From Streptomyces longispororuber (lineage in GTDB: Bacteria > Actinomycetota > Actinomycetes > Streptomycetales > Streptomycetaceae), in NCBI RefSeq assembly GCF_024448165.1, contig NZ_JAMOLN010000026.1:1-64000 (forward strand): a DNA stretch of 64,000 bases, written 5' to 3'. The position numbers were made by a program, and so were the translations under genes. Under the pieces are notes generated by a model. It was not told the DNA's origin and ran no database searches. It saw nothing but the letters and a program-made list of their open reading frames with translations. The stretch's first letter is position 1, and each line of letters begins with the position of its first letter. Positions 5,700-25,951 of the stretch are shown in pieces.

Positions 5700-5821
5700 G
5701 ACTGACGTACCCCTTGCGTCGAAAGATCTGGCCAGCGCCCCCTGTCCAAATTGCTTTCGTGTGCGCACGGGTCCTGGGCCCGGCCGGCGCGCACCGCCGG
5801 CCGGACCACCCTGAGGTCACC

Positions 5822-7975: not shown

Positions 7976-7978
7976 CAA

Positions 7979-9208
7979 TCAGATCACTCCGTTCGACTTC
8001 AGAAGGCGCAACTCCTCGTCGCCCAGCCCGAGTTCACCGACGAAGACCTCTTCGTTGTGCTCGCCGAGGAGGGGCGAGCTGGTGATCTCGACGGGGGAGT
8101 CGGAGAGTTTGAGGGGGGAGCCGACGGTCTTGAAGGTGCCGCGCTGGGGATGCGGGACGTCGACGACCATCTCGTTGGCGATCAGGGAGGCGTCCTCGAT
8201 GATCTCCTCGGTGGAGAGGATGGGGCCGCAGGGGATGTTGTGGGCGTTGAGCTTCTCCAGGACCTCCCACTTGGGGAGGGTGGAGGTCCACTCCTCGATG
8301 AGCTGGAACATCTTGTTGAGCTTGGGCAGCCGCGCCTCGGGGGTGGCCCACTCGGGGTCGTCGGCGAGCTCGGGGCGGCCTATCAGGTCGGTGATGGGCT
8401 GCCAGCCGATGGGCTGGACGATGACGTACACGTAGTCGTTGGGCCCGCCGGGCGCGCACTGCACGGCCCAGCCGGGCTGGCCGCCGCCGGAGGCGTTGCC
8501 GGAGCGGGGGACCTCGGTCCCGAAGTCGTCGTTGGGGTACTCGGCGAGGGGGCCGTGGGCCAGCCGCTGCTGGTCGCGGAGCTTGACGCGGCACAGGTTG
8601 AGGACGGCGTGCTGCATGGCGACGTTGACCCGCTGGCCGCGGCCGGTGTTCTCGCGCTGGAAGAGGGCGGCGAGGATGCCGGCGACGGTGTGGACGCCGG
8701 TGCCGGAGTCACCGATCTGGGCGCCCGTGGCGAGCGGTGGCCCGTCCTCGAAGCCGGTGGTCGACATCGAGCCGCCCATGGCCTGGGCGACGACCTCGTA
8801 CGCCTTGAAGTTGGTGTAGGGGCCGTCGCCGAAGCCCTTGATGGAGGCGTAGATGATCCGCGGGTTGATGGACTGGATGTGGTCCCAGGTGAACCCCATC
8901 CGGTCGATCGCGCCGGGGCCGAAGTTCTCGACGAGGATGTCCGAGCGGCGGATCAGCTCGGTCAGGATCTCCTTGCCGCGCTCGGACTTGGTGTTGAGGG
9001 TGATGCTCCGCTTGTTGCAGTTGAGCATCGTGAAGTAGAGGGAGTCGACGTCGGGGAGGTCGCGCAGTTGCTTGCGCGTGATGTCCCCTGACGGCGCCTC
9101 CAGCTTGATCACGTCCGCGCCCAGCCACGCCAATAGCTGCGTGGCGGACGGACCCGACTGGACATGGGTCATGTCCAGGACACGCACACCTTCAAGAGCC
9201 TTCGTCAC
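7979..9208 (-). CDS. frc: Formyl-CoA:oxalate CoA-transferase (class III CoA-transferase)
   Basis: This 409-residue family III CoA-transferase moves CoA from formyl-CoA (or succinyl-CoA) to oxalate, giving oxalyl-CoA for decarboxylation. The N-terminus ([19 protein letters not shown]), the [13 protein letters not shown] stretch and the GGGQPG glycine loop are typical of Frc. Asp167 in [12 protein letters not shown] is the expected residue for the acyl-aspartate intermediate. The GTG start at 9208 has GAGGTGAG about 8 nt upstream. It heads a minus-strand operon with the acyl-CoA synthetase and probably the two carriers. The divergent promoter region towards the sucC-like gene contains a perfect 8-bp inverted repeat likely bound by the GntR regulator. 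Presence of oxc in the same island makes the assignment firm. Confidence 0.92.
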
Positions 9209-9340: not shown

Positions 9341-9406
9341 AACTTGGTATCCCGCATCCGATGGTGGTGTCCAGGGGGCGTGCGGCACTTCTTTCAGGAG
9401 CCGAGA

Positions 9407-10540
9407 ATGGACCTGTACGAACACCAGGCAAGGGAACTCTTCGCGGAACACGGCATCTTGGTGCCGCAGGCCGAGGTCACCGCCTCGGCGAAGGAAGCCA
9501 GGGAGATCGCGCGCAGGCTCGGCGGCAAGGTCGTCGTCAAGGCACAGGTGAAGACCGGCGGTCGCGGAAAGGCCGGGGGCGTCAAGCTCGCCGCCGACCC
9601 GGCAGCCACCGAGATAACGGCGCGTCAGATCCTCGGCATGGACATCAAGGGCCACACCGTCCACACGGTGATGGTGGCCCAACCCGTCGACATCGAGAGC
9701 GAGTTCTACGTCTCGTACGTGCTCGACCGGGCGGCCGGCACCTTTCTCGCCATCGCCTCCGCCGAGGGCGGCATGGACATCGAGGAGGTCGCCGCCACCC
9801 GGCCCGAGGCCGTGGCCCGGGTCGCCATCGATCCGGCCAAGGGCGTCACGACCGCCAAGGCCGCACTGATCGCCGAGGCGGCCGGACTGCCGCCGCAGAC
9901 CGTCGACGTCCTCGTCCGCCTGTGGGAGGTGCTGACCCGCGAGGACGCCGTCCTCGTCGAGGTGAACCCGCTCGTGCGCACCCGGCAGGGGCAGATCCTC
10001 GCGCTCGACGGAAAGGTCACCCTCGACGACAACGCCCGCTTCCGCCAAACCCGTTGGGGTGCGGCGGACGTCGAGCACACGGATCCGCTGGAGGCCGAGG
10101 CGGCGGCCAAGGGACTCAACTACGTCAAGCTCGACGGCGAGGTGGGCATCATCGGCAACGGCGCGGGACTGGTGATGTCCACCCTCGACGTGGTCGCCGG
10201 CTGCGGCGCCAGGCCCGCCAACTTCCTCGACATCGGGGGCGGTGCCTCCGCCGGGACGATGGCCGACGGGCTGAACGTCATCCTCTCCGACCCGGCCGTC
10301 CGGTCCGTCTTCGTCAACGTCTTCGGCGGCATCACCGCCTGCGACGCGGTCGCCGACGGCATCGTCAAGGCCCTGGACAGCGTGCGGCTGACCAAGCCGC
10401 TCGTGGTCCGGCTCGACGGGAACAACGCCGAGCGCGGGCGGGCCATCCTCGACGCGGCCGCGCATCCACTGATCGAGCAGGCCACCACCATGGACGGCGC
10501 CGCGCGCCGCGCCGCCGACCTCGCCACCGCGACCGCCTGA
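9407..10540 (+). CDS. sucC: Succinyl-CoA synthetase beta subunit-like (ATP-grasp), oxalate-island copy
   Basis: This 377-residue protein matches the beta subunit of ADP-forming succinyl-CoA ligase: [31 protein letters not shown] (ATP-grasp), VEVNPL and the C-terminal FLDIGGGA and NVFGGI segments. The ATG at 9407 has AGGAG (9396-9400) in front; the longer open frame runs through the regulatory region and is not used. It is followed by its alpha partner after 11 bases and is transcribed away from frc. Placed here, it may regenerate succinyl-CoA as CoA donor for the transferase or act on another dicarboxylate. A housekeeping TCA-cycle role is also possible if no other copy exists in the genome. 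Confidence 0.85.
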
Positions 10541-10551: not shown

Positions 10552-11436
10552 ATGGCCATCTATCTCACCAAGGAGAGCAAGGTCCTCGTCCAGGGCATGA
10601 CCGGGGCCGAGGGCACCAAGCACACCCGCCGCATGATCGCCGCGGGCACGAACGTGGTCGGCGGCGTCAACCCCCGCAAGGCCGGCACCAGCGTCGACTT
10701 CGACGACCGGGCCGTCCCGGTCTTCGGCAGCGTCGCCGACGGCATGCGGGCCACCGGCGCCGACGTCACCGTCGTCTTCGTGCCGCCCGCGTTCGCCAAG
10801 GCGGCCGTCGTCGAGGCGGCCGACGCGGGCATCCCGCTCGCCGTCGTCATCACCGAGGGCATCCCGGTCCACGACTCCGTCGCCTTCACCGCGTACGCGC
10901 GGCGCAAGGGCACCCGGATCGTCGGCCCCAACTGCCCGGGACTGATCTCGCCCGGCCAGTCCAACGCGGGCATCATCCCCGCCGACATCACCAAGCAGGG
11001 CCGGATCGGCCTCGTCTCCAAGTCGGGCACCCTCACCTACCAACTCATGTACGAGCTGCGGGACATCGGCTTCACCTCGTGCGTCGGCATCGGCGGCGAC
11101 CCCGTCATCGGGACCACGCACATCGACTGCCTGGAAGCCTTCGAGAACGACCCCGAGACCGAACTCGTCGTCCTGATCGGCGAGATCGGCGGCGATGCCG
11201 AGGAGCGCGCCGCCGCCCACATCCGCGACCACGTCAGCAAGCCCGTCGTCGCCTACATCGCCGGGTTCACCGCGCCCGAGGGCAAGACCATGGGCCACGC
11301 CGGCGCCATCGTCTCCGGTTCGTCGGGCACGGCGCAGGCGAAGAAGGCGGCCCTGGAGGCCGTCGGCGTCCGCGTCGGGTCCACGCCGACGGAGACGGCC
11401 CGGCTGGTTCTCGACCGGCTCGCGGCCGATCAGTGA
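10552..11436 (+). CDS. sucD: Succinyl-CoA synthetase alpha subunit-like, oxalate-island copy
   Basis: This 294-residue protein carries the CoA-binding domain ([21 protein letters not shown]) and the ligase domain with [24 protein letters not shown] and [15 protein letters not shown]. His249 in the last motif is the phosphohistidine position. It follows the beta subunit gene by 11 bases with GGAG in the gap, so the two make one ligase. After its stop two stem-loops separate it from the aldehyde dehydrogenase gene. Its acid substrate is presumed to be succinate or a related dicarboxylate. Confidence 0.86.
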
Positions 11437-11570: not shown

Positions 11571-13112
11571 ATGGTCACCACCCTCAAGTCCGGTACGTCC
11601 TGGGACGACGCCTGGCAGCGCTGTCTCACCGTCGCCCCCGAGGCGTTCCGGGAGGATCGCGTCCTCAACCTCTGGAACGGCACCTGGCACGCCGACGGCC
11701 GTGCCCTGCCCGCGACCAGCCCGGTCGACGGCAGCCCGATCGCGGGTCCGCCGCGGCTCGACGCCGACACCGCGCACGGCGCCGTGCGCGCCGCCCTCGA
11801 CCAGCACCGCGCGTGGCGCCACATCGCCCTGCCCGAGCGCCGCGCCCGCGTCGCCGCCACCCTCGACGCCCTCACCCAGCACCGCGAACTGCTCGCCCTG
11901 TTGCTCGTCTGGGAGATCGGCAAGCCCTGGCGGCTGGCGACGGCGGACGTGGACCGGGCGATCGACGGCGTGCGCTGGTACGTCGACAACATCGACGACA
12001 TGCTGGGCGACCGGGCACCGCTGGACGGCCCGGTGTCGAACATCGCGAGCTGGAACTACCCGATGAGCGTGCTGGTGCACGCGATGCTGGTGCAGGCCCT
12101 CGCCGGCAACGCCGTGATCGCCAAGACCCCGACGGACGGCGGGGTCGCCTGCCTGACCCTGGCCAGTGCGCTCGCGGCCCGCGAAGGACTGCCGTTCACA
12201 CTGGTCAGCGGCAGCGGGGGAGAGCTGTCGCAGGCGCTGGTGCGGGCGCCGGAGATCGGCTGCGTGTCCTTCGTGGGCGGGCGGGACACCGGCGCCGCGG
12301 TGGCGACGGCGGTCGCGGACCTGGGCAAGCGGCACATCCTGGAGCAGGAGGGGCTGAACACCTGGGGCTTCTGGAACTTCAGCGACTGGGACAAGCTGAC
12401 GGCGACGGTCCCGAAGCTGTTCGACTACGGCAAGCAGCGCTGCACCGCCTACCCGCGGTTCGTCGTGCAGCGCGACTCCTTCGACGCCTTCCTCGACGCC
12501 TATCTGCCGGCCGTCCGCAGCCTGCGGATCGGCCACCCGCTCGCCGTGGACGATCCTCAGGACCCGTATCCTCAGCTGGACTTCGGGCCGCTGATCAACG
12601 CGGCGAAGGCGAAGGAGCTCACCGACCAGGTGAGCGAGGCCATCGGCCGGGGCGCCGTCCCGCTGCACCGCTCCGCGCCCGACCCCGACCGGTTCCTGCC
12701 GGGGCAGGACACGAGCGCGTACGTCCATCCCGTCACGCTGCTCGGGCCGCCGGCGTCGTCGCCGCTGCACCACGCGGAGCCGTTCGGGCCGGTGGACACG
12801 ATCGTGCTGGTGGACACGGAGGCGGAGCTGCTCGCGGCGATGAACGCCTCGAACGGTGCGCTGGTGGCGTCGTTGTCGACGGACGACGAGGCGACGTTCG
12901 CCCGGCTGGCCCCGCAGATCCGGGCCTTCAAGGTCGGTCAGGGCGGGCCGCGTTCGCGGGGTGACCGCGAGGAGCTGTTCGGCGGGTTCGGCGCCTCGTG
13001 GCGCGGCGCGTTCGTGGGCGGCGAGCTGCTCGTCCGCGCGGTCACCCAGGGACCGGCGGGGGAACGGCTGCCCGGCAACTTCCCCGCCTACACGACGACA
13101 CCGGAGGTCTGA
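11571..13112 (+). CDS. Aldehyde dehydrogenase-family protein in the oxalate island
   Basis: This 513-residue protein is an NAD(P)-dependent aldehyde dehydrogenase by fold: NIASWNYPMSVLVHAML, a glycine-containing FVGGRDTG motif, the base region LEQEGLNTW (Glu258) and the nucleophile region GKQRCTAYPRF (Cys291). The usual E-L-G-G is altered to E-Q-E-G, so the second glycine next to the substrate is missing. A start at 11571 (ATG after GAGAGAACC) gives the normal family length. Its substrate may be glyoxylate, glycolaldehyde or an acyl-CoA-derived aldehyde of the oxalate route; CoA-acylating activity (glyoxylate/oxalyl-CoA) is possible but unproven. It ends at a strong hairpin. Confidence 0.75.
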   Translation: MVTTLKSGTSWDDAWQRCLTVAPEAFREDRVLNLWNGTWHADGRALPATSPVDGSPIAGPPRLDADTAHGAVRAALDQHRAWRHIALPERRARVAATLDALTQHRELLALLLVWEIGKPWRLATADVDRAIDGVRWYVDNIDDMLGDRAPLDGPVSNIASWNYPMSVLVHAMLVQALAGNAVIAKTPTDGGVACLTLASALAAREGLPFTLVSGSGGELSQALVRAPEIGCVSFVGGRDTGAAVATAVADLGKRHILEQEGLNTWGFWNFSDWDKLTATVPKLFDYGKQRCTAYPRFVVQRDSFDAFLDAYLPAVRSLRIGHPLAVDDPQDPYPQLDFGPLINAAKAKELTDQVSEAIGRGAVPLHRSAPDPDRFLPGQDTSAYVHPVTLLGPPASSPLHHAEPFGPVDTIVLVDTEAELLAAMNASNGALVASLSTDDEATFARLAPQIRAFKVGQGGPRSRGDREELFGGFGASWRGAFVGGELLVRAVTQGPAGERLPGNFPAYTTTPEV

Positions 13113-13342: not shown

Positions 13343-14038
13343 TCAGTCGCTCAGGCCGATGGCGGCGGCGATCTGCCGGCAGTAGAAGTCCGTGGTGCGC
13401 TGGGTGTGTTGGCGCATCAGCGCCTCGGAGCGGTCCGGGTCGCCCTCGGCGATGGCCTCGATGATCAGTGCGTGCTCGCTCCAGGCGTCCTTGCCGCGGG
13501 GCTTGGCGATCGGCGTGTAGTACCAGCGCACCCGCTGGTCGACCTGCGGGATCAGCTCGGCGAGGACCGCGTTGCGCGAGAGGTGCGTGATGTGGGTGTG
13601 CAGTGCGGCGTTGGCCTCGACGATCGCCCGGGCGTCGTCGGCGGCGAGCGCGGCGATGCCCGCCTCCTGCAGCTCCCAGAGCCGGGCGACGTCCTGCGCC
13701 GACGCGTGCTGGGCCGCGCCGCGCGCCGAGTAGGTCTCCAACACAGCCCGCACGCCGAGGAGTTGGGTGCACTCCTCGACGGTCGGCGCGTGCACGTACG
13801 CGCCCTGGGCGGGGCGCAGGTCGACCCATCCGGCCGCCTGCAGGCGTTGCAGTGCCTCGCGCACCGGCTGCCGGCTCACCCCGAGGTGCTCGGCGAGGTC
13901 GGCCTCGACCAGGTGCTGGCCGGGGGTGAGGGTGCCATTGATGATCATCTCGATCAGGGCGTCGTAGACGGCCTGGCGGAGCGGGACCGGCCGGGAGATC
14001 GGGCCGCGGGCGGCCATGGCCATGGGCGTCTCGGGCAT
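13343..14038 (-). CDS. GntR-family transcriptional regulator with FCD ligand domain; probable oxalate-island regulator
   Basis: This 231-residue regulator has an N-terminal winged helix (RQAVYDALIEMIINGTLTPG, EADLAEHLGVSRQPVREALQRLQAAGWV) and a C-terminal all-helical FCD domain (VRAVLETYSARGAA, ANAALHTHITHLSRN, SEHALIIEAIAEGD), whose Asp/His residues usually bind a metal and an organic acid. The start at MPETP (14038) has GGAGGGG about 8 nt upstream; an earlier ATG at 14056 has no comparable site. FadR-type proteins bind short palindromes with a GTA-TAC core, and such boxes lie at several island promoters including the divergent region at 14219. The ligand is probably oxalate, glyoxylate or a CoA ester (inference). 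Activator or repressor role is unknown. Confidence 0.88.
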   Translation of the reverse strand: MPETPMAMAARGPISRPVPLRQAVYDALIEMIINGTLTPGQHLVEADLAEHLGVSRQPVREALQRLQAAGWVDLRPAQGAYVHAPTVEECTQLLGVRAVLETYSARGAAQHASAQDVARLWELQEAGIAALAADDARAIVEANAALHTHITHLSRNAVLAELIPQVDQRVRWYYTPIAKPRGKDAWSEHALIIEAIAEGDPDRSEALMRQHTQRTTDFYCRQIAAAIGLSD

Positions 14039-14061
14039 GAAGAGCCCCTCCCTCATAGGGT

Positions 14062-14078
14062 TCTGACGTTCCGTCAGA
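14062..14078. promoter_or_regulatory. Inverted repeat in the GntR gene leader
   Basis: TCTGACG (14062-14068) and CGTCAGA (14072-14078) are perfect 7-bp arms with a 3-nt spacer, just upstream of the GntR ribosome site. A related sequence, TGACGGCCCGTCA, occurs at 33209-33221 in front of an unrelated gene, so this may be a general regulatory box and not an oxalate operator. Confidence 0.45.
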
Positions 14079-14218
14079 TCTCGGGATACCGACTTTAGTA
14101 TGCAGTAGACAGTCGCGGGCCGGGGGTGTCTCGCCGTGGCGGGTGTGCCCGGAGCGGGCCTCGTAAAGGAAATCCAAAGGGCTCCGTCGTACCCCTGGCG
14201 CCAGGAAGTGCATCCGAA

Positions 14219-15204: not shown

Positions 15205-15678
15205 ATGACGACCAGCGGTACGGACGTGTCGGTCGAGAGCGTGGTCAGGAGAGCCGCGGCCGCACACCGCGCCGAACGCGGCGCGCTGCTGCCCGTACTC
15301 CACGCGGTGCAGGCCGAGTTGGGCTGCGTACCGCAGGAGGCCATCCCGGTCCTCGCCGACGAGTTCAACCTCTCCCGCGCCGACGTCCACGGAGTGGTGA
15401 CCTTCTACCACGACTTCCGCCGCGAACCCGCGGGTCGCAGCACGGTCCGCATCTGCCGGGCCGAAGCCTGCCAGGCGCTCGGCGCGAACCGCCTGGTCAG
15501 CTACGCACGCGAGGCCGGAACCCCGGTCGGGGAGACCTCCGCCGACGGCGCGGTCACCGTCGAACAGGTCTTCTGCCTCGGCAACTGCGCCCTCGGCCCG
15601 TCGGTGGAGGTCGACGGCCGGCTGCACGGCCGGGTCAGCCCCGAACGGCTCGGCGCGCTCCTCAACGGAACGGTGTGA
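15205..15678 (+). CDS. fdsG: NAD-dependent formate dehydrogenase gamma subunit (NuoE-like, [2Fe-2S])
   Basis: This 157-residue protein is NuoE-like. It has a helical N-terminus (AERGALLPVLHAVQAELG, SRADVHGVVTFYHDF) and a thioredoxin-like [2Fe-2S] domain whose four cysteines lie in CRAEAC and CLGNC. In soluble NAD-dependent formate dehydrogenases this subunit passes electrons next to the flavoprotein. It heads the G-B-A-D operon and is preceded by the CTGTATACAG operator. Its stop overlaps or nearly touches the next start. In the island it serves the oxidation of formate freed from formyl-CoA. Confidence 0.9.
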   Translation: MTTSGTDVSVESVVRRAAAAHRAERGALLPVLHAVQAELGCVPQEAIPVLADEFNLSRADVHGVVTFYHDFRREPAGRSTVRICRAEACQALGANRLVSYAREAGTPVGETSADGAVTVEQVFCLGNCALGPSVEVDGRLHGRVSPERLGALLNGTV

Positions 15679-15680
15679 CG

Positions 15681-17279
15681 ATGCAGAACCCGACCATCGT
15701 GTACGTCCCGCGCGACTCGGCGGCCCGCTCGGTCGGTGCCGACGAGGTCGCCGCCGCACTCCAACAGGCCAGTGAGCAGGGCGAGTTCGCCATCGAAGTG
15801 GTGCGCAACGGATCGCGCGGCGCACTCTGGCTCGAACCGCTCGTCGAGGTCGTCACCGAGCAGGGCCGCATCGGCTACGGCCCGGTGACCGCCGACGACG
15901 TACCAGGACTGCTCGCCGCCGGTCTGCTCACCGGCGGCGACCATCCGCTGCGCCTCGGCCGCGTCGACCAACTCCCCTGGCTGGCACGGCAGAACAGGGT
16001 CACCTTCGCCCGCGTCGGCGTCATCGACCCGCTCTCGCCCGAGGACTACGTCGCCCACGGCGGCCTGCGCGGCCTGCGCGCCGCCCTCGCGCTCGACCCC
16101 GCCGACGTCGTCGCCCAGGTCACCGAGTCCGGACTGCGCGGCCGCGGCGGCGCCGGATTCCCGGCCGGCATCAAGTGGAAGACCGTCCTCGAGTGCCAGG
16201 GCGAGGGGGCTGACCTCAAGTTCATCTGCTGCAACGCCGACGAGGGCGACAGCGGCACCTTCGCCGACCGCATGGTCATGGAGGGCGACCCGTTCCTGCT
16301 CATCGAGGGCATGGCGATCGCCGCACACGCCGTCGGCGCGAGCGAGGGCTACATCTACCTGCGCTCCGAGTACCCCGACGCCATCGCCACCATGAACGCG
16401 GCCATCGAGATCGCCCACGGCCAGGGCTGGCTCGGCAAGGGCGTCCTGGGCTCGACGCTCGACTTCGACCTGAGGGTCCGGGTCGGCGCGGGCGCGTACA
16501 TCTGCGGCGAGGAGACCTCCATGCTGGACAGCCTGGAGGGCAAGCGCGGCATGGTCCGCGCGAAGCCGCCGATCCCCGCGATCGAGGGCCTCTTCGGCAA
16601 ACCGACCGTCGTCAACAACGTCCTCACCCTCACCACCGTCCCCGTCGTCCTCGCCGACGGGCCCAAGGCCTACCAGGACCTCGGCGTCGGCCGCTCCCGC
16701 GGCACCCAGGTCTTCCAGCTCGGCGGCAACATCAAGCGCGGCGGCATCGTCGAGACCGCCTTCGGCATCACCCTGCGCGAATTGATCGAGGACTACGGCG
16801 GCGGCACCCTCAGCGGCCGCCCCGTCCGCACCGCCCAGGTCGGCGGACCGCTCGGCGCGTACCTGCCGGTGGAACAGTTCGACCTGCCGATGGACTACGA
16901 GGCGTTCGCCGAGGCCGGCGCGATGCTCGGGCACGGCGGCGTCGTGGTCTTCGACGACTCCGTGGACATGGCCGCACAGGCCCGGTTCGCCATGGAGTTC
17001 TGCGCCGAGGAGTCCTGCGGCAAGTGCACCCCCTGCCGGGTCGGCGCCGTCCGCGGCGTCGAAGTGATCGACCGCATCGTCGCCGGCACCCACCGGGACG
17101 AGAACCTGGCCCTGCTCGAAGACCTCTGCGACCTGATGACCGACGGCTCGCTGTGCGCGATGGGCGGACTGACCCCCATGCCGGTGCGCAGCGCCCTCGC
17201 CCACTTCCCCGACGACTTCCTGGGCGGCCGCAAGCTGCTCGACATCACGCCCGTACACAGGACGGAGGGCACGGCATGA
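15681..17279 (+). CDS. fdsB: NAD-dependent formate dehydrogenase beta subunit (NuoF-like, FMN, NAD site)
   Basis: This is a NuoF-type diaphorase of 532 residues. The NAD/FMN region contains GRGGAGFPAGIKW and CNADEGDSGTFADR, and the C-terminus binds a [4Fe-4S] cluster through ESCGKCTPCRVG. The N-terminal 120 residues form a thioredoxin-like extension as in FdsB. I place the start at ATG 15681, about 10 nt after GGAACGG; a GTG at 15675 overlapping the previous stop is an alternative two residues longer. It takes electrons from the molybdenum subunit to NAD+. The ATGA overlap with the next gene shows tight coupling. Confidence 0.9.
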   Translation: MQNPTIVYVPRDSAARSVGADEVAAALQQASEQGEFAIEVVRNGSRGALWLEPLVEVVTEQGRIGYGPVTADDVPGLLAAGLLTGGDHPLRLGRVDQLPWLARQNRVTFARVGVIDPLSPEDYVAHGGLRGLRAALALDPADVVAQVTESGLRGRGGAGFPAGIKWKTVLECQGEGADLKFICCNADEGDSGTFADRMVMEGDPFLLIEGMAIAAHAVGASEGYIYLRSEYPDAIATMNAAIEIAHGQGWLGKGVLGSTLDFDLRVRVGAGAYICGEETSMLDSLEGKRGMVRAKPPIPAIEGLFGKPTVVNNVLTLTTVPVVLADGPKAYQDLGVGRSRGTQVFQLGGNIKRGGIVETAFGITLRELIEDYGGGTLSGRPVRTAQVGGPLGAYLPVEQFDLPMDYEAFAEAGAMLGHGGVVVFDDSVDMAAQARFAMEFCAEESCGKCTPCRVGAVRGVEVIDRIVAGTHRDENLALLEDLCDLMTDGSLCAMGGLTPMPVRSALAHFPDDFLGGRKLLDITPVHRTEGTA

Positions 17280-20050
17280 CGCTCCTCAAGGAACCCGACT
17301 TCGGAACACCGGAACGGCCGGGCCCGGCGACCGTCTCCGTGGAGATCGACGGCATGCCGGTGACCGTGCCCGAGGGCACGTCGGTGATGCGCGCCGCCGC
17401 CGAGGCCGGCGTCGACATCCCGAAGCTGTGCGCCACCGACAGCCTGGACGCGTTCGGCTCGTGCCGGCTGTGCGTCGTGGAGATCGACGGCCGCCGCGGC
17501 ACCCCGGCCTCCTGCACCACCCCGTGCAGCGAGGGCATGTCGGTGCGCACCCAGACCCCCAAGGTGGAGAAGCTGCGCCAGGGCGTCATGGAGCTCTACA
17601 TCTCCGACCACCCCCTGGACTGTCTGACCTGCCCCGCCAACGGCGACTGCGAACTGCAGGACATGGCCGGTGTGGTGGGCCTGCGCCAGGTCCGCTACGG
17701 CTACGAGGGCGAGAACCACCTCGACGCCGAGAAGGACACCTCCAACCCCTACTTCGACTTCGACCCGTCCAAGTGCATCGCCTGCTCGCGCTGCGTACGG
17801 GCCTGCGGCGAGGTGCAGGGCACGTTCGCGCTGACCATCGAGGGGCGCGGCTTCGAGTCCAAGGTGGCGGCGGGCGCGGGCGAGTCGTTCATGGACTCCG
17901 AGTGCGTCTCCTGCGGCGCCTGCGTCCAGGCCTGCCCGACCTCGACCCTCCAGGAGCGCTCGGTCGTCGACCTCGGCATGCCGACCCGCTCCGTCGTCAC
18001 CACCTGCGCGTACTGCGGCGTCGGCTGCTCCTTCAAGGCCGAGCTGCGCGGCGACGAACTCGTGCGCATGGTCCCGTACAAGGACGGCGGGGCCAACGAG
18101 GGCCACTCCTGCGTGAAGGGCCGCTTCGCCTTCGGTTACGCGACGCACCCCGACCGTCAACTCAAGCCCATGGTGCGGGAGTCCATCACCGATCCCTGGC
18201 GCGAGGTCGAGTGGGACGAGGCGATCGGCACGGTCGCCCGCCGCATGCGCGAGATCCAGGACCGTCACGGCAAGGGCTCCATCGGCGCGATCTCCTCTTC
18301 CCGTTGCACCAATGAAGAGGTCTACGTCGTCCAGAAGATGGTCCGCGCCGCGTTCGGCAACAACAACGTCGACACCTGCGCCCGCGTCTGCCACTCGCCC
18401 ACCGGCTACGGGCTGAAGCAGACCTTCGGCGAATCGGCCGGCACCCAGGACTTCCGCTCGGTCGCCGAGGCCGACGTCATCATGGTCATCGGCGCCAATC
18501 CCACCGACGGCCACCCGGTGTTCGCCTCCCGGATGAAGCGCAGGCTGCGCGAGGGCGCCCGGCTCATCGTGGTCGACCCGCGCCGCATCGACCTGGTCCG
18601 TTCCCCGCACATCGAGGCCAGCCACCACCTCCAGCTGCGGCCCTCCACCAACGTGGCCGTGGTCAACGCGATGGCGCACGTCGTCGTCACCGAGGGCCTC
18701 GTCGACAAGGGCTTCGTCGCGCAGCGCTGCGAGGGCTACGAGGACTGGGCCGAGTTCGTGGCCCGCCCGGAGAACAGCCCCGAGGCCACCGAGGAGGTCA
18801 CCGGCGTCCCCGCCGCCGAGCTGCGCGCCGCCGCCCGCCTCTACGCGTCCGCACCCAACGGAGCCATCTACTACGGCCTCGGCGTCACCGAGCACAGCCA
18901 GGGTTCCACCATGGTCATGGGCATGGCCAACCTGGCGATGGCCTGCGGCAACATCGGCCGCGACGGCGTCGGCGTGAACCCGCTGCGCGGGCAGAACAAC
19001 GTCCAGGGCTCCTGCGACATGGGCTCCTTCCCGCACGAACTGCCCGGCTACCGGCATGTGTCGGACGACGCGGTGCGCGGCGTCTTCGAGGAACTGTGGG
19101 GCGGCACGATCCTCGCCGAGCCGGGCCTGCGCATCCCCAACATGTTCGACGCGGCCATCGACGGCACGTTCCGCGGCCTGTTCGTGCACGGCGAGGACAT
19201 CGCCCAGTCGGACCCGAACCTGAAGCACGTGACGGCGGCCCTCGAAGCCATGGAACTGGTCGTCGTCCAGGACCTGTTCCTCAACGAGACCGCCAAGTTC
19301 GCCCACGTCTTCCTGCCCGGCGCCTCCTTCCTGGAGAAGGACGGCACGTTCACCAACGCCGAGCGGCGCATCAACCTGGTCCGCCAGGTGATGGCCCCCA
19401 AGGCGGGCAAGCACGAGTGGCAGATCGTCTGCGAGATCGCCACCGCCATGGGGTACCCCATGGCCTACGACCACCCGTCGCAGATCATGGACGAGATCGC
19501 CCAGGTCACCCCGACCTTCGAGGGCGTCTCCTTCGACCTCATCGACAAGCTCGGCAGCGTCCAGTGGCCGTGCAACGAAGAGGCCCCCGAAGGCACCCCG
19601 ACCATGCACGTGGACGAATTCACCCGCGGCAAGGGCCGGTTCGTCGTCACCTCGTACGTCCCGACCAACGAACGCAGCACCCGCCGCTACCCGCTGGTCC
19701 TCACCACCGGCCGCATCCTCAGCCAGTACAACGTCGGCGCGCAGACCCGGCGCACCGGCAACGTCGCCTGGCACCCCGAGGACATCCTCGAACTGCATCC
19801 GCACGACGCCGAGGAACGCGGCATCACCGACGGCGACACCGTCACCCTCGCCAGCCGCGTCGGCACCACCACGCTCAAGGCGCAGATCTCCGACCGGATG
19901 CCGACCGGCGTCGTCTACACGACGTTCCACCACCCGGTCACCGGGGCGAACGTGGTGACCACCGAGAACTCGGACTGGGCCACCAACTGCCCCGAGTACA
20001 AGGTGACCGCCGTCCAGGTGCGGCGCGCCCGCGTCACGGCGGGGGACTGA
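17276..20050 (+). CDS. fdsA: NAD-dependent formate dehydrogenase alpha subunit (molybdenum, cysteine type)
   Basis: This 924-residue subunit oxidises formate to CO2 at a molybdopterin centre. The N-terminus is NuoG-like: a [2Fe-2S] ferredoxin fold (CATDSLDAFGSCRLC) and a Cys-rich segment (CLTCPANGDC). Two [4Fe-4S] motifs (CIACSRCVRAC, CVSCGACVQAC) follow, then the catalytic domain opening with CAYCGVGC. In CARVCHSPTG, Cys372 is the molybdenum ligand with His373 next to it, so this is a cysteine and not a selenocysteine enzyme. The C-terminus has the usual molybdopterin-binding barrel (TTGRILSQYN, FHHPVTGAN). No FdhD sulfur-carrier gene accompanies it in the window, so that maturation factor must lie elsewhere. 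Confidence 0.93.
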   Translation: MTLLKEPDFGTPERPGPATVSVEIDGMPVTVPEGTSVMRAAAEAGVDIPKLCATDSLDAFGSCRLCVVEIDGRRGTPASCTTPCSEGMSVRTQTPKVEKLRQGVMELYISDHPLDCLTCPANGDCELQDMAGVVGLRQVRYGYEGENHLDAEKDTSNPYFDFDPSKCIACSRCVRACGEVQGTFALTIEGRGFESKVAAGAGESFMDSECVSCGACVQACPTSTLQERSVVDLGMPTRSVVTTCAYCGVGCSFKAELRGDELVRMVPYKDGGANEGHSCVKGRFAFGYATHPDRQLKPMVRESITDPWREVEWDEAIGTVARRMREIQDRHGKGSIGAISSSRCTNEEVYVVQKMVRAAFGNNNVDTCARVCHSPTGYGLKQTFGESAGTQDFRSVAEADVIMVIGANPTDGHPVFASRMKRRLREGARLIVVDPRRIDLVRSPHIEASHHLQLRPSTNVAVVNAMAHVVVTEGLVDKGFVAQRCEGYEDWAEFVARPENSPEATEEVTGVPAAELRAAARLYASAPNGAIYYGLGVTEHSQGSTMVMGMANLAMACGNIGRDGVGVNPLRGQNNVQGSCDMGSFPHELPGYRHVSDDAVRGVFEELWGGTILAEPGLRIPNMFDAAIDGTFRGLFVHGEDIAQSDPNLKHVTAALEAMELVVVQDLFLNETAKFAHVFLPGASFLEKDGTFTNAERRINLVRQVMAPKAGKHEWQIVCEIATAMGYPMAYDHPSQIMDEIAQVTPTFEGVSFDLIDKLGSVQWPCNEEAPEGTPTMHVDEFTRGKGRFVVTSYVPTNERSTRRYPLVLTTGRILSQYNVGAQTRRTGNVAWHPEDILELHPHDAEERGITDGDTVTLASRVGTTTLKAQISDRMPTGVVYTTFHHPVTGANVVTTENSDWATNCPEYKVTAVQVRRARVTAGD

Positions 20051-20051: not shown

Positions 20052-20312
20052 ATGGCCCACACCGCCGTGCCGGCCGAACGCCGGATGGCCAACGACATCG
20101 CCAAGCACCACGCCCACCTGCCGGCCGACCTGGCCGCCGAGGCCATCGCCGGCCACCTCACCAGGTTCTGGGACCCGCGGATGCGCGAGCGGCTCCTCGC
20201 CTCCGTGGACGACGGCGCCGACGGTGCCGACGGTGCCGACGGTGCCGACGGTGCCGGCGGCGCGGACGGATTCGACCCGCTCGTCCTGGCCGCGGTGAAA
20301 CTCATGCGCTGA
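20052..20312 (+). CDS. fdsD: Formate dehydrogenase delta subunit
   Basis: This 86-residue protein starts one base after the alpha-subunit stop and matches the small FdsD subunit through RMANDIAKH and HLTRFWDPRMRERLL, with a C-terminal LDPLV-type element (FDPLVLAAVKLMR). FdsD proteins are needed for assembly or stability of the complex. Between the two conserved parts lies a run of DGA tripeptides coded by 9-bp tandem repeats, which lengthens the linker. It is the last gene of the operon, followed by a strong terminator. Confidence 0.88.
   Translation: MAHTAVPAERRMANDIAKHHAHLPADLAAEAIAGHLTRFWDPRMRERLLASVDDGADGADGADGADGAGGADGFDPLVLAAVKLMR
20211..20255 (+). repeat. 9-bp tandem repeat (five units) inside fdsD
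   Basis: GACGGCGCC once and GACGGTGCC four times, head to tail, coding DGA repeats in the linker of the delta subunit. Copy number is likely to vary between strains by slippage without breaking the frame. Confidence 0.9.
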
Positions 20313-20434: not shown

Positions 20435-21406
20435 ATGAAGATCGCAGTTGTCGGCGCCGGAGCCATCGGCGCCTATGTCGGAGCCGCCCTGCACCGCGGC
20501 GGCGCCGAGGTCCACCTCATCGCCCGCCGCGACCACCTGCGGGCCATCCAGGAGAACGGCGTCCGGGTGCTCAGCGCCCGCGGCGACTTCACCGCCCACC
20601 CGCACGCCACCGACGACCCGAACGAGATCGGCCCGGTCGACTACGTCTTCCTCGGCCTGAAGGCCCACTCGTACCCCACCAGCGGCGCACTGATCACCCC
20701 GCTGCTCGGCGAGCACACCGCGGTCGTCGCCGGACAGAACGGCATCCCCTGGTGGTACTTCCACCAGCTGAAGGGCCCCTACGAGGGCCGCCGCATCGAA
20801 GCCGTCGACCCGGGCGGCGCCACCAGCGAGGTGCTGCCCCCGCAGCGCGCCATCGGCTGCGTCGTCTACCCGGCCACCGTCATCGAGTCCCCGGGCGTCA
20901 TCCGGCATCTGGAAGGCACCCGGTTCTCCATCGGCGAGCCGGGCGGGGAACTCTCCGACCGGTGCACGGCCCTCAGCGAAGCCATGATCGCGGGCGGTCT
21001 GAAGTGTCCCGTCGAGGAGAACCTCCGCGACGACATCTGGATCAAGCTGATGGGCAACGCGGCCTTCAACCCGATCAGCGCCCTCACCCGGGCCACCATG
21101 GTCGACATCTGCCGCCACCCGTCGACCCGCACCATGGTCACCCGCGTCATGGAGGAGATCCTCGACGTCGCGGCCCGCGTCGGCTCCCGGCCCGACATCT
21201 CCATCGAGAAGCGGCTGCGCGGCGCCGAGGGCGTCGGCCACCACAAGACGTCCATGCTCCAGGACCTCGAAGCGGGCAAGCAGCTGGAACTGGACGCCAT
21301 CGTCACGGCCGTCGTGGAGATGGCCGACATCACCGGCGCCGAGGCACCGACGCTGCGCACGGTGCACGCCGCGACCGACCTGCTGGCCCGCACCGTGGCC
21401 GCGTAG
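20435..21406 (+). CDS. PanE/ApbA-family reductase; candidate oxalyl-CoA reductase
   Basis: This 323-residue protein has the 2-dehydropantoate 2-reductase fold: N-terminal NADP site (KIAVVGAGAIGAYVGAAL, then ARRDHLRAI) and the helical C-terminal domain with the conserved lysine and asparagine in DIWIKLMGNAAFNPISALTR. GGAGGAG lies 6 nt before the ATG. It is flanked by formate dehydrogenase and a LysR gene inside the oxalate island, far from pantothenate genes. In Methylobacterium a PanE-family enzyme is reported to reduce oxalyl-CoA to glyoxylate, opening oxalate to assimilation. I infer the same role here from context. Ketopantoate reductase or reduction of another 2-oxo acid remains possible. 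Confidence 0.8.
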   Translation: MKIAVVGAGAIGAYVGAALHRGGAEVHLIARRDHLRAIQENGVRVLSARGDFTAHPHATDDPNEIGPVDYVFLGLKAHSYPTSGALITPLLGEHTAVVAGQNGIPWWYFHQLKGPYEGRRIEAVDPGGATSEVLPPQRAIGCVVYPATVIESPGVIRHLEGTRFSIGEPGGELSDRCTALSEAMIAGGLKCPVEENLRDDIWIKLMGNAAFNPISALTRATMVDICRHPSTRTMVTRVMEEILDVAARVGSRPDISIEKRLRGAEGVGHHKTSMLQDLEAGKQLELDAIVTAVVEMADITGAEAPTLRTVHAATDLLARTVAA

Positions 21407-21479: not shown

Positions 21480-22415
21480 ATGCTGTTCCGGCAGCTGGAG
21501 TACTTCGTGGCGGTGGCGCGCGAACGACACTTCGCGCGCGCCGCGGAGTCCTGCTACGTCTCCCAGCCGGCGCTCTCCGCGGCCATCGCCAAACTGGAGC
21601 GCGAACTCAACGTCACGCTGATCAACCGTGGCCACACCTACCAGGGCCTGACCGCCGAGGGGGAGCGGCTGGTCGTCTGGGCCAAGCGGATCCTCGCCGA
21701 ACAGGAGGCGTTCAAGGCCGAGGTGGCCGCCGTGCAGTCGGGCATCACCGGGACGCTGCGCCTGGGCACCGACCCCACGGCGTCCACCACGCTCGCCCTC
21801 CCGGTCGCCGCCTTCTGCTCCGCGCACCCGCTGGCCAAGGTGCAGGTCCGCTCGCGCCTGTCCACGAGGGAACTCCACCGCCAGCTGCGCGACTTCGAAC
21901 TCGACGTCGCCATCGCCCACTTCGACCCCTGCGACCAGGAGGGCCTGCAGATCGTCCCGCTCTACGAGGAGCGGTACATGCTGCTGGTCCCCGACGAACA
22001 GTTCACCTCGGTCCAGGGCAGCGTCAGCTGGGCGGACGCGGCGCAGCTCCCCCTCGCGCTGCTCACCCCCGACATGCGGATCCGGCAGATCGTCGACAAG
22101 GTCTTCGCCGACAAGGGCCTGGAGGTCACCCCGCAGGTCGAGACCGACTCGATCGCCTCCCTGTACGCCCACGTGGGCGGCGGCGACTGGGCGAGCATCG
22201 TCCCGCACACCTGGCTGCGGGCGATGCCCGTCGTCGGCCGGGCGCGGGCGCTGCCGCTGGTCGACCCGGCGGCCGGGGCGCAGGTCTCGGTCGCCATCCA
22301 CGCGGGCACGCCCGGCTCGATCGCGGCCCGCGCCTTCGTCAGCGCGGCCACCGGCCTTGGCCTCGACGAGGTCTTCGCCCAGCCGCCGCGGCCCGTGCCC
22401 GACCGGGTCCGCTGA
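21480..22415 (+). CDS. LysR-family transcriptional regulator, probable second regulator of the oxalate island
   Basis: This 311-residue protein has an N-terminal winged helix-turn-helix (LFRQLEYFVAVARERHFARAA, SQPALSAAIAKLERELNVTLINR) and a periplasmic-binding-like effector domain (LRLGTDPTAST to the end). The ATG at 21480 follows GGAAGGGAG. It runs in the same direction as the reductase gene and ends 2 bp from the convergent AMP-ligase gene, with no room for a terminator. LysR proteins bind T-N11-A boxes; two occur between the AMP-ligase gene and oxc, about 1.7 kb away. Control of those two genes is an inference. Confidence 0.88.
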   Translation: MLFRQLEYFVAVARERHFARAAESCYVSQPALSAAIAKLERELNVTLINRGHTYQGLTAEGERLVVWAKRILAEQEAFKAEVAAVQSGITGTLRLGTDPTASTTLALPVAAFCSAHPLAKVQVRSRLSTRELHRQLRDFELDVAIAHFDPCDQEGLQIVPLYEERYMLLVPDEQFTSVQGSVSWADAAQLPLALLTPDMRIRQIVDKVFADKGLEVTPQVETDSIASLYAHVGGGDWASIVPHTWLRAMPVVGRARALPLVDPAAGAQVSVAIHAGTPGSIAARAFVSAATGLGLDEVFAQPPRPVPDRVR

Positions 22416-22417: not shown

Positions 22418-23965
22418 TCACGCGTACCGGTCCCGTACCGCGATCCGGTCGAGCCCGCCCTGCGCGGTCCGCGGCAGCGCCCCGACCAGCACGATCCGCT
22501 CCGGCACCGCGAAGGCGGCGAGCCGGTCGCGGCAGTAGCGCAGGATCTCCGCCGGGCCCGCGCACTCCTCGCCCCGCACCACCACGGCGGCCGCCACCCG
22601 CTGCCCGCCCCCGCCGTCGGCCACCCCGAACACGGCCGCCTCGACGACGGAGGGGCACCCGGCGAGCACGTCCTCCACGTACTCGGGCGAGACCGTCCGG
22701 CCCCCGCGCTCGATGAGAGTGCCGATCCGCCCGGCCAGCGACAGGTACCCGTCCTCGTCCAGGGACCCCAGATCGCCGGTGCGCAGCCAGCCGTCGGCGG
22801 TGAACACCCGGGCCCCACCGCCGGGTTCGGCGAGACGGCCGCGCGCGACCGTCGGCCCCTGCACCCACACCTCACCGCGCACCCCGGCCGGCCGGTCCCG
22901 CCCGTCCGGGCCGACGACGCGCAGCCGCACCCCGGTCGCCCGGCCCACCGTGCCCTGCTTCAGCGGCCCGCGCTGCGGCAGCGGCTCGCCGGCGATCTGG
23001 TGCGTTGACTCCGTCGTCCCGTACGCGGACAGCAACGGCGCCGCGAACATCCGCTCCAGAGCGCGCTGCGTAGCCGCGTTCAGGGGTCCGCCGCAACTGC
23101 GGACGAACCGCAGCGGCGGCGGATGCGGCCCCGGATCCTGCGTCTCGGACCGGGCCAGCAGCGCCTCGTGGAGGCTCGGCACCGCGGTGAACCAGGTCGC
23201 CCCGACCGCCCGCAGATCGTCCCAGAGCGTCTCCGCGCGGAAGCGCCCGGACGCGGGCAGCAGCACGCACCCGCCGGTGGCCAGCGGCGCGAGGAGCGCC
23301 GCGAACAGGCCGTGCCCGTGGAAGAACGGCATCACGGCCACCGTCGCGTCCCGGGGCCCCAGCTCGTACGTGGCGCAGATCCCCCGCACCGAAGCGGCCA
23401 CGTTCGCGTGGCTCAGCGGCACCAGCCGGGCCCGGCCCATCGTGCCCGCCGTACACAGCACCACGGTGTCCTGCGGGGCGAGACCCGGCGGCGGGCCGGG
23501 GACGAGCGCACCGGACCGCAGCCCGACCGACGCCGCCCCGCCACGCCGCAGCGCCACGCGCACGGTCCAGCCCACCCCGTCCTCCGCCGCCAGCACGGCC
23601 CGCGCCCCCAACTCCGCTGTGCGTGCCGCGAGTTCGGACGCCGGGAGGGCGGGATCGAGCGGGGCGGTCACCAGGCCCGCGCGGGCCGCGCCCAGCAGGG
23701 CGACCACGAACTCGACGGTGTTCGAGGAGACCAGGGCGACCACGTCGCCGCGCCGCAGCCCCGCCGCACGCAACCGGTCCGCCGTCCGCCCGGCCAGGGC
23801 CGCGAGATCACGGTAGGAGAGCGGCAGCCGGTCCCGGCCGACGACCAGCGCGCGGGCCTCGGGACGCTCCCGGGCCTGCCGCTCGACCAGACCGGCCAGA
23901 CCCGTGAGTGCGGGCGGCCGGTACCGGTGGGCATCGCGCACGGACGCCGCGGCCGACGTGGCCAT
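22418..23965 (-). CDS. AMP-forming acyl-CoA synthetase related to oxalyl-CoA synthetase (AAE3/Pcs60 type), with altered motifs
   Basis: This 515-residue ANL enzyme resembles oxalate-CoA ligases in its core: MPFFHGHGLFAALLAPL, GRFRAETLW, TWFTAVPSLHEALL, RFVRSCGGPL and SAYGTTESTHQI. GGAGGAGG precedes the ATG. Two catalytic signatures are eroded: the phosphate loop reads CTAGTMGRARLV, with Arg180 where lysine is usual, and the C-terminal motif reads PRTAQGGLDR, with Gly504 where the adenylation lysine belongs. RGGRTVSP replaces the usual RGGEKISP. It may make oxalyl-CoA slowly, perform only the thioester half-reaction, or be decaying. It is divergent from oxc with shared regulatory repeats between. 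Confidence 0.78.
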   Translation of the reverse strand: MATSAAASVRDAHRYRPPALTGLAGLVERQARERPEARALVVGRDRLPLSYRDLAALAGRTADRLRAAGLRRGDVVALVSSNTVEFVVALLGAARAGLVTAPLDPALPASELAARTAELGARAVLAAEDGVGWTVRVALRRGGAASVGLRSGALVPGPPPGLAPQDTVVLCTAGTMGRARLVPLSHANVAASVRGICATYELGPRDATVAVMPFFHGHGLFAALLAPLATGGCVLLPASGRFRAETLWDDLRAVGATWFTAVPSLHEALLARSETQDPGPHPPPLRFVRSCGGPLNAATQRALERMFAAPLLSAYGTTESTHQIAGEPLPQRGPLKQGTVGRATGVRLRVVGPDGRDRPAGVRGEVWVQGPTVARGRLAEPGGGARVFTADGWLRTGDLGSLDEDGYLSLAGRIGTLIERGGRTVSPEYVEDVLAGCPSVVEAAVFGVADGGGGQRVAAAVVVRGEECAGPAEILRYCRDRLAAFAVPERIVLVGALPRTAQGGLDRIAVRDRYA

Positions 23966-24232: not shown

Positions 24233-25951
24233 ATGACCGCCGCCTCGAACACGCCGGCCGAGCCCACCGACGGGTACCACCTCGTCGTCGACGCGCTGAA
24301 GATGAACGGGGTCGAGACCGTCTACGGCGTGGTCGGCATCCCCATCACCGACCTCGCCCGCCTCGCGCAGGCCGAGGGCATCCGCTACGTGGGCTTCCGC
24401 CACGAGTCCAACGCCGGACACGCCGCCGCGATCGCCGGCTACCTCACCAAACAGCCGGGCATCTGTCTCACCGTCTCCGCCCCCGGCTTCCTCAACGGCC
24501 TGGTGGCGCTCGCCAACGCCACCACCAACTGCTTCCCCATGGTCCAGATCTCCGGCTCGAGCGAGCGCCACCTCGTCGACCTCAAGCAGGGCGACTACGA
24601 GGAGATGGACCAGCTCGCCGCGGCCCAGCCGTTCGTGAAGGCCGCCTACCGGGTCAGCCGTGTCGAGGACATCGGCCGCGGCATCGCCCGCGCCCTGCGC
24701 ACCGCGATCTCCGGCCGCCCCGGCGGCGTCTACCTCGACATCCCCGCCGCCGTGCTCGGCTCGATCATGGACAAGGAGGAGGGCGCGAAGACGCTGAGCC
24801 GCCTGGTCGACCCGGCCCCGCGCCAGCTGCCCGCCCCCGAGTCGGTGGACCGCGCGATCGAGCTGCTCGCCTCGGCCGAGCGCCCGCTCGTCGTCCTCGG
24901 CAAGGGCGCGGCCTACGCGCAGGCCGACACCAAGATCCGCGACTTCGTCGAGTCGACCGGCATTCCCTACGTACCGATGTCCATGGCCAAGGGCCTGCTC
25001 CCCGACGACCACCCGCAGTCCGCGGCGACGGCCCGCTCCCTCGCCCTCAAGCGGGCCGACGTGGTCATGCTGGTCGGCGCCCGGCTGAACTGGCTGCTCA
25101 ACCACGGCGAGCGCGGCTGGAACCCCGACGCCAAGTTCATCCAGGTCGACATCGAGCCCAGGGAGATCGACAGCAACCAGCCGATCGCCGCCCCGCTCGT
25201 CGGCGACATCGAATCGGTGCTCGACGCGATATCGGAGCGCGCCAAGCCCGGCCAGATCGCGACGCCCGCGGCCTGGAAGGAAGAGCTGGCAGCCCGTTCC
25301 TCCCAGAACGTGGCGAAGATGGCCAAGCGCCTGGAGGCCGACCCGCACCCCATGCAGTTCATGGGCGCGCTCCGGGCGGTACGCGACGTGCTGCGCCCGC
25401 GCCCGGAGACGTACCTGGTCAACGAGGGCGCGAACGCCCTCGACATGGCACGCAACGTGATCGACATGTCCGTCCCGCGGCACCGCCTGGACAGCGGCAC
25501 GTGGGGCGTCATGGGCATCGGCATGGGCTACGCGATCGCCGCCGCCGTCGAGACCGGGCAGCCGGTGGTGGCGGTGGAGGGCGACAGCGCCTTCGGCTTC
25601 TCCGGCATGGAACTGGAGACGATCTGCCGCTACAACCTCCCGGTCGTCACCGTGATCATGAACAACGGCGGGGTGTACCGGGGCGACGAGGCCAGCGGCC
25701 GCTCCGACGACCCGGCCCCGACCACGCTGATGAGCGCCGCCCGCCACGACCTGATGATCGAGGCATTCGGCGGCAAGGGCTACCGCGCGACCACCCCCGC
25801 CGAGGTGACCGCGGCCCTCACCGAGGCCCTGGAGTCCGGCGGCCCGGCGCTGATCGACTGCGTGATCGACCCGTCGGCGGGCACGGAGAGTGGCCACATC
25901 GCCCACCTGAACCCGAAGGGTGTCGGCAACATCGGCCCCGCCAAGAGCTGA
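24233..25951 (+). CDS. oxc: Oxalyl-CoA decarboxylase (thiamine diphosphate enzyme)
   Basis: This 572-residue ThDP enzyme converts oxalyl-CoA to formyl-CoA and CO2. It has the three domains of the family: the PYR domain with the catalytic glutamate in YVGFRHESNAGHAAAIAGYL, the central domain (LGKGAAYAQADTKIRDFVE) and the PP domain with the Mg/ThDP motif GDSAFGFSGMELETICRYNLPVVTVIMNN. GVYRGDEAS and the C-terminal DPSAGTESGHI loop, which closes over the active site in Oxc, are present. AAGGAGG sits 9 nt before the ATG. The reaction feeds formyl-CoA to Frc and the formate dehydrogenase. The array at 24059-24149 probably controls it. Confidence 0.95.
   Translation: MTAASNTPAEPTDGYHLVVDALKMNGVETVYGVVGIPITDLARLAQAEGIRYVGFRHESNAGHAAAIAGYLTKQPGICLTVSAPGFLNGLVALANATTNCFPMVQISGSSERHLVDLKQGDYEEMDQLAAAQPFVKAAYRVSRVEDIGRGIARALRTAISGRPGGVYLDIPAAVLGSIMDKEEGAKTLSRLVDPAPRQLPAPESVDRAIELLASAERPLVVLGKGAAYAQADTKIRDFVESTGIPYVPMSMAKGLLPDDHPQSAATARSLALKRADVVMLVGARLNWLLNHGERGWNPDAKFIQVDIEPREIDSNQPIAAPLVGDIESVLDAISERAKPGQIATPAAWKEELAARSSQNVAKMAKRLEADPHPMQFMGALRAVRDVLRPRPETYLVNEGANALDMARNVIDMSVPRHRLDSGTWGVMGIGMGYAIAAAVETGQPVVAVEGDSAFGFSGMELETICRYNLPVVTVIMNNGGVYRGDEASGRSDDPAPTTLMSAARHDLMIEAFGGKGYRATTPAEVTAALTEALESGGPALIDCVIDPSAGTESGHIAHLNPKGVGNIGPAKS

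Follow-up and report, generated by a model that had tools for sequence, protein, structure and literature searches.

A PanE-like gene in an oxalate gene island of Streptomyces longispororuber: a candidate actinobacterial oxalyl-CoA reductase

Introduction

The primary paper on the PanE2 protein of Methylobacterium extorquens is reportedly that of Schneider (2012). The accessible part of PMC8411744 presents PanE2 as a characterised oxalyl-CoA reductase and uses it for the conversion of oxalyl-CoA into glyoxylate, which agrees with what the preliminary description of our locus had stated about a PanE-family protein of Methylobacterium. The ApbA2 protein of Cupriavidus necator shares 51% identity with M. 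extorquens PanE2, its gene is located close to frc-oxc, and when this gene is deleted, doubling on oxalate takes 10 h instead of 6.5 h (PMC7486775, accessible part). A synthetic pathway in yeast, in which panE2 supplies the oxalyl-CoA reductase, is said in the accessible part of PMC12686821 to rescue the synthesis of both glycine and serine; the use of panE2 in yeast is also mentioned in the accessible part of PMC10127448.

A survey of oxalotrophy was based on oxc, frc, oxdC and oxlT, and the word glyoxylate is absent from its accessible part (PMC10192776). Oxalyl-CoA reductase is named as an enzyme in PMC12927642, in the accessible part of which no mention of panE or Streptomyces was found, and PMC9476978 names no reductase gene. 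Among the literature matches listed, there was no paper on an actinobacterial oxalyl-CoA reductase; most subscription journals, including a cited paper on oxalate in Kribbella, lay outside the search. Here, we describe a panE-like gene of Streptomyces longispororuber whose sequence and surroundings suggest that it is most likely a new actinobacterial case of this known reductase type.

Results

The window, i.e., the whole stretch of DNA analysed, comprises 64,000 nucleotides of the S. longispororuber genome and lies on contig C179. The preliminary description had placed a ketopantoate-reductase-fold gene between formate dehydrogenase and oxalate genes, and this arrangement was confirmed: the formate dehydrogenase genes are upstream, the synthetase-like ligase and oxc are downstream, and frc belongs to the same island (Table 1). 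It also proved right in stating that no pantothenate genes are near, as panB and panC are found on contigs C93 and C102, respectively. The single glyoxylate carboligase gene (gcl) of this genome is likewise on a contig other than that of the window (G000:C430; TIGR01504 1176 bits, cut-off 711), and ilvC is present in two copies.

Table 1. Features of the oxalate island in the window (bit scores are given with the cut-offs of the models).
Feature	Position	Strand	Match or remark
MFS transporter, oxalate/formate antiport-like	2939..4447	-	TIGR00890 180 bits, below cut-off 375; L-lactate MFS model 190, below 320
Second MFS transporter, same kind	4314..5768	-	TIGR00890 175 bits, below cut-off 375
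ADP-forming acyl-CoA synthetase family	5822..7978	-	top matches 4-hydroxybutyrate- and acetate-CoA ligases, all under cut-offs
frc, formyl-CoA transferase	7979..9208	-	TIGR03253 689 bits, cut-off 504
sucC, succinyl-CoA ligase beta	9398..10540	+	
sucD, succinyl-CoA ligase alpha	10558..11436	+	
Divergent aldehyde dehydrogenase (ALDH), beside sucCD	11571..13112	+	
GntR/FCD regulator, start uncertain	13343..14200	-	
Formate dehydrogenase gamma (NuoE-like)	15205..15678	+	PF01257
Formate dehydrogenase beta (NuoF-like)	15675..17279	+	NuoF best match, 433 bits, below cut-off 559
Formate dehydrogenase alpha, start proposed	17276..20050	+	TIGR01591 921 bits, cut-off 666
Formate dehydrogenase delta FdsD	20052..20312	+	PF11390 61 bits
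panE-like gene, candidate NADPH-dependent oxalyl-CoA reductase	20435..21406	+	323 aa, extra loop at about residues 104-128
LysR-family regulator	21480..22415	+	
Oxalyl-CoA synthetase-like AMP ligase	22418..23965	-	6qjz/5ie0 339/335 bits
oxc, oxalyl-CoA decarboxylase, start proposed	24233..25951	+	TIGR03254 1000 bits, cut-off 739

The AMP ligase matched the two oxalyl-CoA synthetases 6qjz and 5ie0 above the best differently named chain (188 bits), and its NCBIfam name is that of the FadD7 family. The gene for the ADP-forming acyl-CoA synthetase adjoins frc and has counterparts in 21 of the 33 named actinobacterial loci among the matches listed, as well as in C. metallidurans. Some further features of the window were noted on the way. 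In the FdsD gene, near-identical GADGADGAD repeats form a short run at 20211-20270 (+). The open reading frame at 14136-15059 (+) encodes only an acyl-CoA dehydrogenase N-terminal domain and a weak middle domain and is possibly a remnant gene. Genes for an FAD amino-acid oxidase-like protein, a BFD/FAD oxidoreductase and a protein of the dihydrodipicolinate synthase family follow one another at 34352-38193 (+), a row which, as we assume, resembles hydroxyproline catabolism clusters.

The reading frame of the panE-like gene has no internal stop, and a ribosome-binding-like GGAGGAG stands immediately 5′ of its ATG. In the product, both Pfam domains ApbA and ApbA_C were matched, and the subfamily model NF005089 ('2-dehydropantoate 2-reductase') gave 456 bits against a cut-off of 223, other PanE models scoring far lower. 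The protein is 49% identical to the ApbA2-type protein of C. metallidurans (locus L122) and 44% to that of M. bullatum, which are themselves 49% identical to each other, and 23% identical to E. coli PanE. An AlphaFold2 model built from 55 sequences (mean pLDDT 96.6, pTM 0.92) has as its closest solved structure 3GHY (TM 0.91-0.93, 37% identity), followed by E. coli PanE, 1ks9 (TM 0.72/0.80).

The alignment of the active sites showed that K76, N102, K204, N208, N212, S273 and E285 of the window protein correspond to K72, N98, K176, N180, N184, S244 and E256 of E. coli PanE, all seven being identical; we take these residues to have the catalytic roles assigned to them in the E. coli enzyme. Since all of them are kept, the protein may also act on ketopantoate. 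Together with the PanE fold, they speak for an alternative in which the protein would serve pantothenate synthesis as its ketopantoate reductase, its place in the oxalate island being a coincidence; the low identity to E. coli PanE, the placement of panB and panC on other contigs and the recurrence of the oxalate linkage described below speak against it.

The distance between the residues aligned with Asn98 and Lys176 amounts to 77 residues in E. coli PanE and to 101 in the window protein, i.e., about 24 extra residues follow the active-site Asn, forming an ordered loop in the model. The same spacing (100-102) was found in the C. metallidurans, M. bullatum and Phyllobacterium proteins, in L046 and in 3GHY. 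The insert was considered as a signature of oxalyl-CoA reductases, and this was rejected because 3GHY, L165 and L170 share the spacing; in the latter two it was measured directly, and both of these loci are outside oxalate clusters.

The preliminary description had suggested a phylogeny as a check. In a tree built from 57 rows, the window protein does not cluster with E. coli PanE, the only verified PanE included; a branch with 100/99 support separates it from E. coli PanE and the outgroup rows, which likewise argues against a ketopantoate reductase of pantothenate synthesis. It lies inside an actinobacterial clade of 24 rows (support 99/100), and the neighbouring groups are of the Methylobacterium type (9 rows, 99/100) and the Cupriavidus type (8 rows, 59/91). 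3GHY and its relatives, several of which have neighbouring genes that have nothing to do with oxalate, form a long-branch group placed among the rows of Proteobacteria. A single clade of all 42 oxalate-linked rows was neither rejected (p-AU 0.309) nor established, the 3GHY-type group nesting among them in the tree. Neither the insert nor the tree is therefore diagnostic, since L165 and L170 carry the insert outside oxalate clusters and their group nests among proteobacterial oxalate-linked groups.

The neighbourhoods of the relatives were compared in a scan of named genomes that was blind to neighbours and yielded at least 79 loci. Stretches of up to 10 kb on each side were searched with reference proteins, at identity thresholds chosen after the matches were known. 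The actinobacterial genera among the matches listed included Streptomyces, Mycobacterium, Actinoplanes, Plantactinospora, Pseudonocardia, Amycolatopsis (over-represented), Lentzea, Kutzneria and Fodinicola. The panE-like gene stands beside frc, oxc or an oxalyl-CoA synthetase gene in 32 of the 33 named actinobacterial loci listed; the sole locus without such a marker, L034, has gcl and formate dehydrogenase. By gene, the 33 loci comprise 28 with frc, 17 with the second ThDP enzyme described below, nine with oxc, two with the synthetase, 21 with gcl and 19 with formate dehydrogenase. Among the proteobacterial loci listed, an oxalate marker was found in 21 of 28, in 20 cases the synthetase, and the other seven, some of them on short contigs, showed no frc, oxc or synthetase marker in the stretch. 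For the outgroup PanE-family loci listed, the same scan detected these three markers in 0 of 17; sub-threshold matches there were CoA-transferases (24-32%) and a ligase (26%), at L077, L081 and L083. Oxalate linkage of the panE-like gene is thus a recurrent feature, seen across many genera of actinobacteria as well as in Proteobacteria and a single Acidobacteriota bin.

In a plasmid collection, the best 18 panE matches (H1-H18, at least 43% identity) were compared with the best 25 rows each for oxc and for the second ThDP enzyme: oxc was 5-28 kb away in ten and the second ThDP enzyme 1-9 kb away in six, i.e., one or the other in 16 of the 18. In M. bullatum, oxc is 1.4 Mb from panE, which is adjoined by a ligase gene and OxlT, and a Rhodobacteraceae record, present in neither of the best-25 sets, has a ligase gene beside panE. 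Two single loci deserve mention. A distant actinobacterium of another family (L149, G208:C87) has a 64% identical panE-like gene adjoining a gene for an oxalyl-CoA synthetase-like ligase, which is 45% identical to the M. bullatum ligase; the other markers were not found in that stretch. At G128:C1:1723635-1724598 (L008, L013, L146), the panE-like gene is in two pieces in different frames, which may reflect a broken copy or a sequencing error.

The vicinity of gcl brings in another alternative, namely that the enzyme reduces a different 2-oxo acid of the pathway, for example tartronate semialdehyde formed after glyoxylate carboligase, or glyoxylate, which would yield glycolate. In Actinoplanes solisilvae (L023), gcl starts a few bases 3′ of the panE-like gene (NF008431 914 bits, cut-off 791; TIGR01504 713, cut-off 711), gcl is near in the 21 actinobacterial loci counted above, and, judging from structure titles, D-mandelate dehydrogenases share the fold. 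The nearby gcl of Amycolatopsis L027 is above the cut-off of NF008431 and below that of TIGR01504, and that of Mycobacterium L018 is above both. In Azospirillum ramasamyi, the panE-like gene occurs together with oxlT, transhydrogenase genes and gcl. Against this alternative, there is no gcl match in the stretch searched at the ligase-panE(-OxlT) modules L046, L048-L051, L053-L055, L058-L066 and L123, and the nearest named homologues are reported, in the accessible parts of PMC8411744 and PMC7486775, to act on oxalyl-CoA. We consider it unlikely that a different 2-oxo acid is the substrate.

Modules in which the panE-like gene accompanies the synthetase gene, with or without OxlT, occur in Proteobacteria and one Acidobacteriota bin, and neither the gcl nor the ALDH references were matched there in the stretch searched. 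They bear on a further alternative, in which the ALDH of the island (11571-13112) would be the oxalyl-CoA/glyoxylate enzyme and the PanE-like protein would do something else. Copies 82-87% identical to this ALDH do recur at the end of the genus cluster in L175, L177-L180 and L182; against such a role, the modules L046, L048-L066 and L123 gave no ALDH match at E 1e-20, and we regard it as very improbable. The PntAB transhydrogenase genes found shortly 3′ of the panE-like gene in Skermanella and Azospirillum fit the use of NADPH by the PanE-like enzyme.

Within the genus Streptomyces, a relative at E 1e-30 or better was found in 163 of 392 genomes, five of these matches being weak. A type 84-100% identical to the window protein occurs in seven genomes, in each of which oxc is within 14 kb; most of the others are 65-73% identical. 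frc was present in 156/163 genomes with the panE-like gene vs. 33/229 without it (Fisher p 1e-65, uncorrected for kinship). The panE-like gene was likewise present in 33 of 35 oxc genomes vs. 130 of 357 without oxc, a comparison uncorrected for kinship in which the marker references mixed Oxc with the second ThDP enzyme, the two being kept apart in the neighbourhood counts; the oxc genomes without it are G488 and G550. For the 65-73% type, 27 stretches of 20 kb were sampled: formate dehydrogenase was present in 24, no frc, oxc, synthetase or transporter marker was found in 23, and such a marker was found in four. Where both coordinates could be compared on one contig (57 of the 156 genomes), the distance between frc and the panE-like gene was 7.0-41.0 kb, with a median of 29.5. 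In G499, of the same genus, the gene is in the same kind of cluster.

This patchy distribution is hardly that of a ketopantoate reductase of pantothenate synthesis, since the gene is far from near-universal. In favour of that role, this genome yielded just one further ApbA_C protein, C415, which is itself patchy in the genus; considered as the universal ketopantoate reductase, it was rejected because it occurs in only 16 of 37 genus genomes. Neither C415 nor the panE-like protein (at E up to 1e-30) was found in 14 of the 37, so that pantoate is presumably made otherwise in these genomes. IlvC is able to substitute for PanE, and there are, as mentioned, two ilvC copies here. Overall, a housekeeping role in pantothenate synthesis appears very unlikely.

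The second ThDP enzyme is 29% identical to the window Oxc. Many Actinobacteria have it adjoining frc, as do Phyllobacterium and C. metallidurans; examples are L178:4318-5997 (+), L126:16448-18199 (-) and L122:14507-16258 (+). The Phyllobacterium protein encoded next to frc, considered as an Oxc, turned out to be this enzyme. It remains under the cut-off of every NCBIfam model listed, the best being acetolactate synthase (506 bits, cut-off 587), with 244 (cut-off 739) for the Oxc model, and its best solved relative is a 2-hydroxyacyl-CoA lyase (289 bits). It occurs in 157 of the 392 genus genomes, always with frc. The 189 frc genomes divide into 32 with Oxc only, 154 with the second ThDP enzyme only, three with both and none with neither. 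In Cupriavidus and Caballeronia, Oxc is close to panE in some records and the second ThDP enzyme in others. A decarboxylation-free oxalate route was considered for the 123 genomes that have frc and the panE-like gene but lack oxc; it was dropped because all 123 turned out to have the second ThDP enzyme. The simplest reading of these data is that it is likely to be a non-orthologous, so far unrecognised oxalyl-CoA decarboxylase. As the 1396 Oxc sequences in the accessible part of PMC7190790 form one network at 50% identity, the second ThDP enzyme should fall outside that set.

Discussion

Genome context lends good support to the reading of the window protein as a PanE-fold NADPH-dependent oxalyl-CoA reductase (acylating glyoxylate dehydrogenase) that represents an actinobacterial branch of the PanE2/ApbA2 type, and on these sequence-based grounds we consider it quite probable. 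The same context supports the central proposal of the preliminary description, a candidate actinobacterial counterpart of the Methylobacterium enzyme.

In the route that we propose, oxalate would enter the cell via the oxalate-antiporter-like carriers and would be converted into oxalyl-CoA by Frc and the ATP-dependent synthetase, whose genes are assigned by homology. Oxc would decarboxylate one share of the oxalyl-CoA to formyl-CoA, and the resulting formate would be oxidised by formate dehydrogenase, thus providing reducing power, while the PanE-like enzyme would reduce the other share to glyoxylate. Glyoxylate carboligase would then direct the glyoxylate into biomass; its gene is on another contig here and adjoins the panE-like gene in relatives. 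The genes for the decarboxylating branch and for the carboligase are present, and the flux through them is what we suppose. Speculatively, the extra loop after the active-site Asn, which relatives outside oxalate clusters share, may fit the pocket to a thioester.

The same enzyme might instead work mainly in the opposite direction, oxidising glyoxylate with CoA to oxalyl-CoA for disposal, as proposed for C. necator on glycolate in the accessible part of PMC7486775. Two oxalate-activating enzymes and oxalate-type carriers in the island make oxalate look like the input, and without ApbA2, C. necator grows more slowly on oxalate (PMC7486775, accessible part), so that disposal as the main function seems improbable. 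An oxalyl-CoA reductase acting in the assimilatory direction is thus our preferred reading.

On balance, we also lean towards a broader conclusion, that the '2-dehydropantoate 2-reductase' of the 163 genus genomes is an oxalyl-CoA reductase, mostly partnered not by Oxc but by the second ThDP enzyme (named acetolactate synthase or TPP-binding protein by the models), and that this misnaming has hidden actinobacterial oxalate assimilation. Two enzymes that go uncounted in surveys of oxc, frc and oxdC would then share the oxalyl-CoA, one reducing and the other decarboxylating it. Surveys based on oxc alone miss most frc genomes of the genus, as 154 of the 189 have the second ThDP enzyme and no Oxc.

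If the assignment of the window protein is true, soil actinobacteria (e.g., Streptomyces, Amycolatopsis, Actinoplanes) also turn oxalate into biomass by reducing oxalyl-CoA, a route known in Methylobacterium and Cupriavidus; this would change the share of oxalate carbon that these bacteria are expected to keep vs. release as CO2. It would also put right a mistaken vitamin B5-pathway annotation in a sizeable fraction of Streptomyces genomes and make the panE-like gene a marker by which bacteria that assimilate oxalate are told from those that only oxidise it.

With E. coli PanE, the window protein shares the fold and the seven aligned active-site residues; it differs in its 23% identity, in the stretch between Asn98 and Lys176, which is 24 residues shorter in E. 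coli, and in its separate position in the tree. The archaeal ketopantoate reductase 5AYV was solved with bound CoA, as its title states, so the PanE fold can hold CoA; we take this CoA to be an inhibitor, not a substrate. 3GHY, a putative ketopantoate reductase of Ralstonia solanacearum, is the closest solved structure and has the same loop length, but it is only 37% identical and is placed in the tree with long-branch relatives, several of which come from loci outside oxalate clusters; we know of no functional test of it. C. necator ApbA2 is represented here by C. metallidurans (L122), to which the window protein is 49% identical, and C. campinensis (L174), where the gene has frc and a ThDP decarboxylase, or a substitute for it, nearby; unlike the window protein, the Cupriavidus type belongs to a proteobacterial branch, and its stretches searched gave no formate dehydrogenase match. 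Homology to M. extorquens PanE2 itself was judged by proxies, M. bullatum (44%) and C. metallidurans (49%). The M. bullatum protein has the PanE fold, the same extra loop and an adjoining oxalate-activating gene, just as the window protein does, and the two differ in phylum and in company, M. bullatum having OxlT and a ligase beside the gene, whereas in the window it is accompanied by frc, oxc and formate dehydrogenase.
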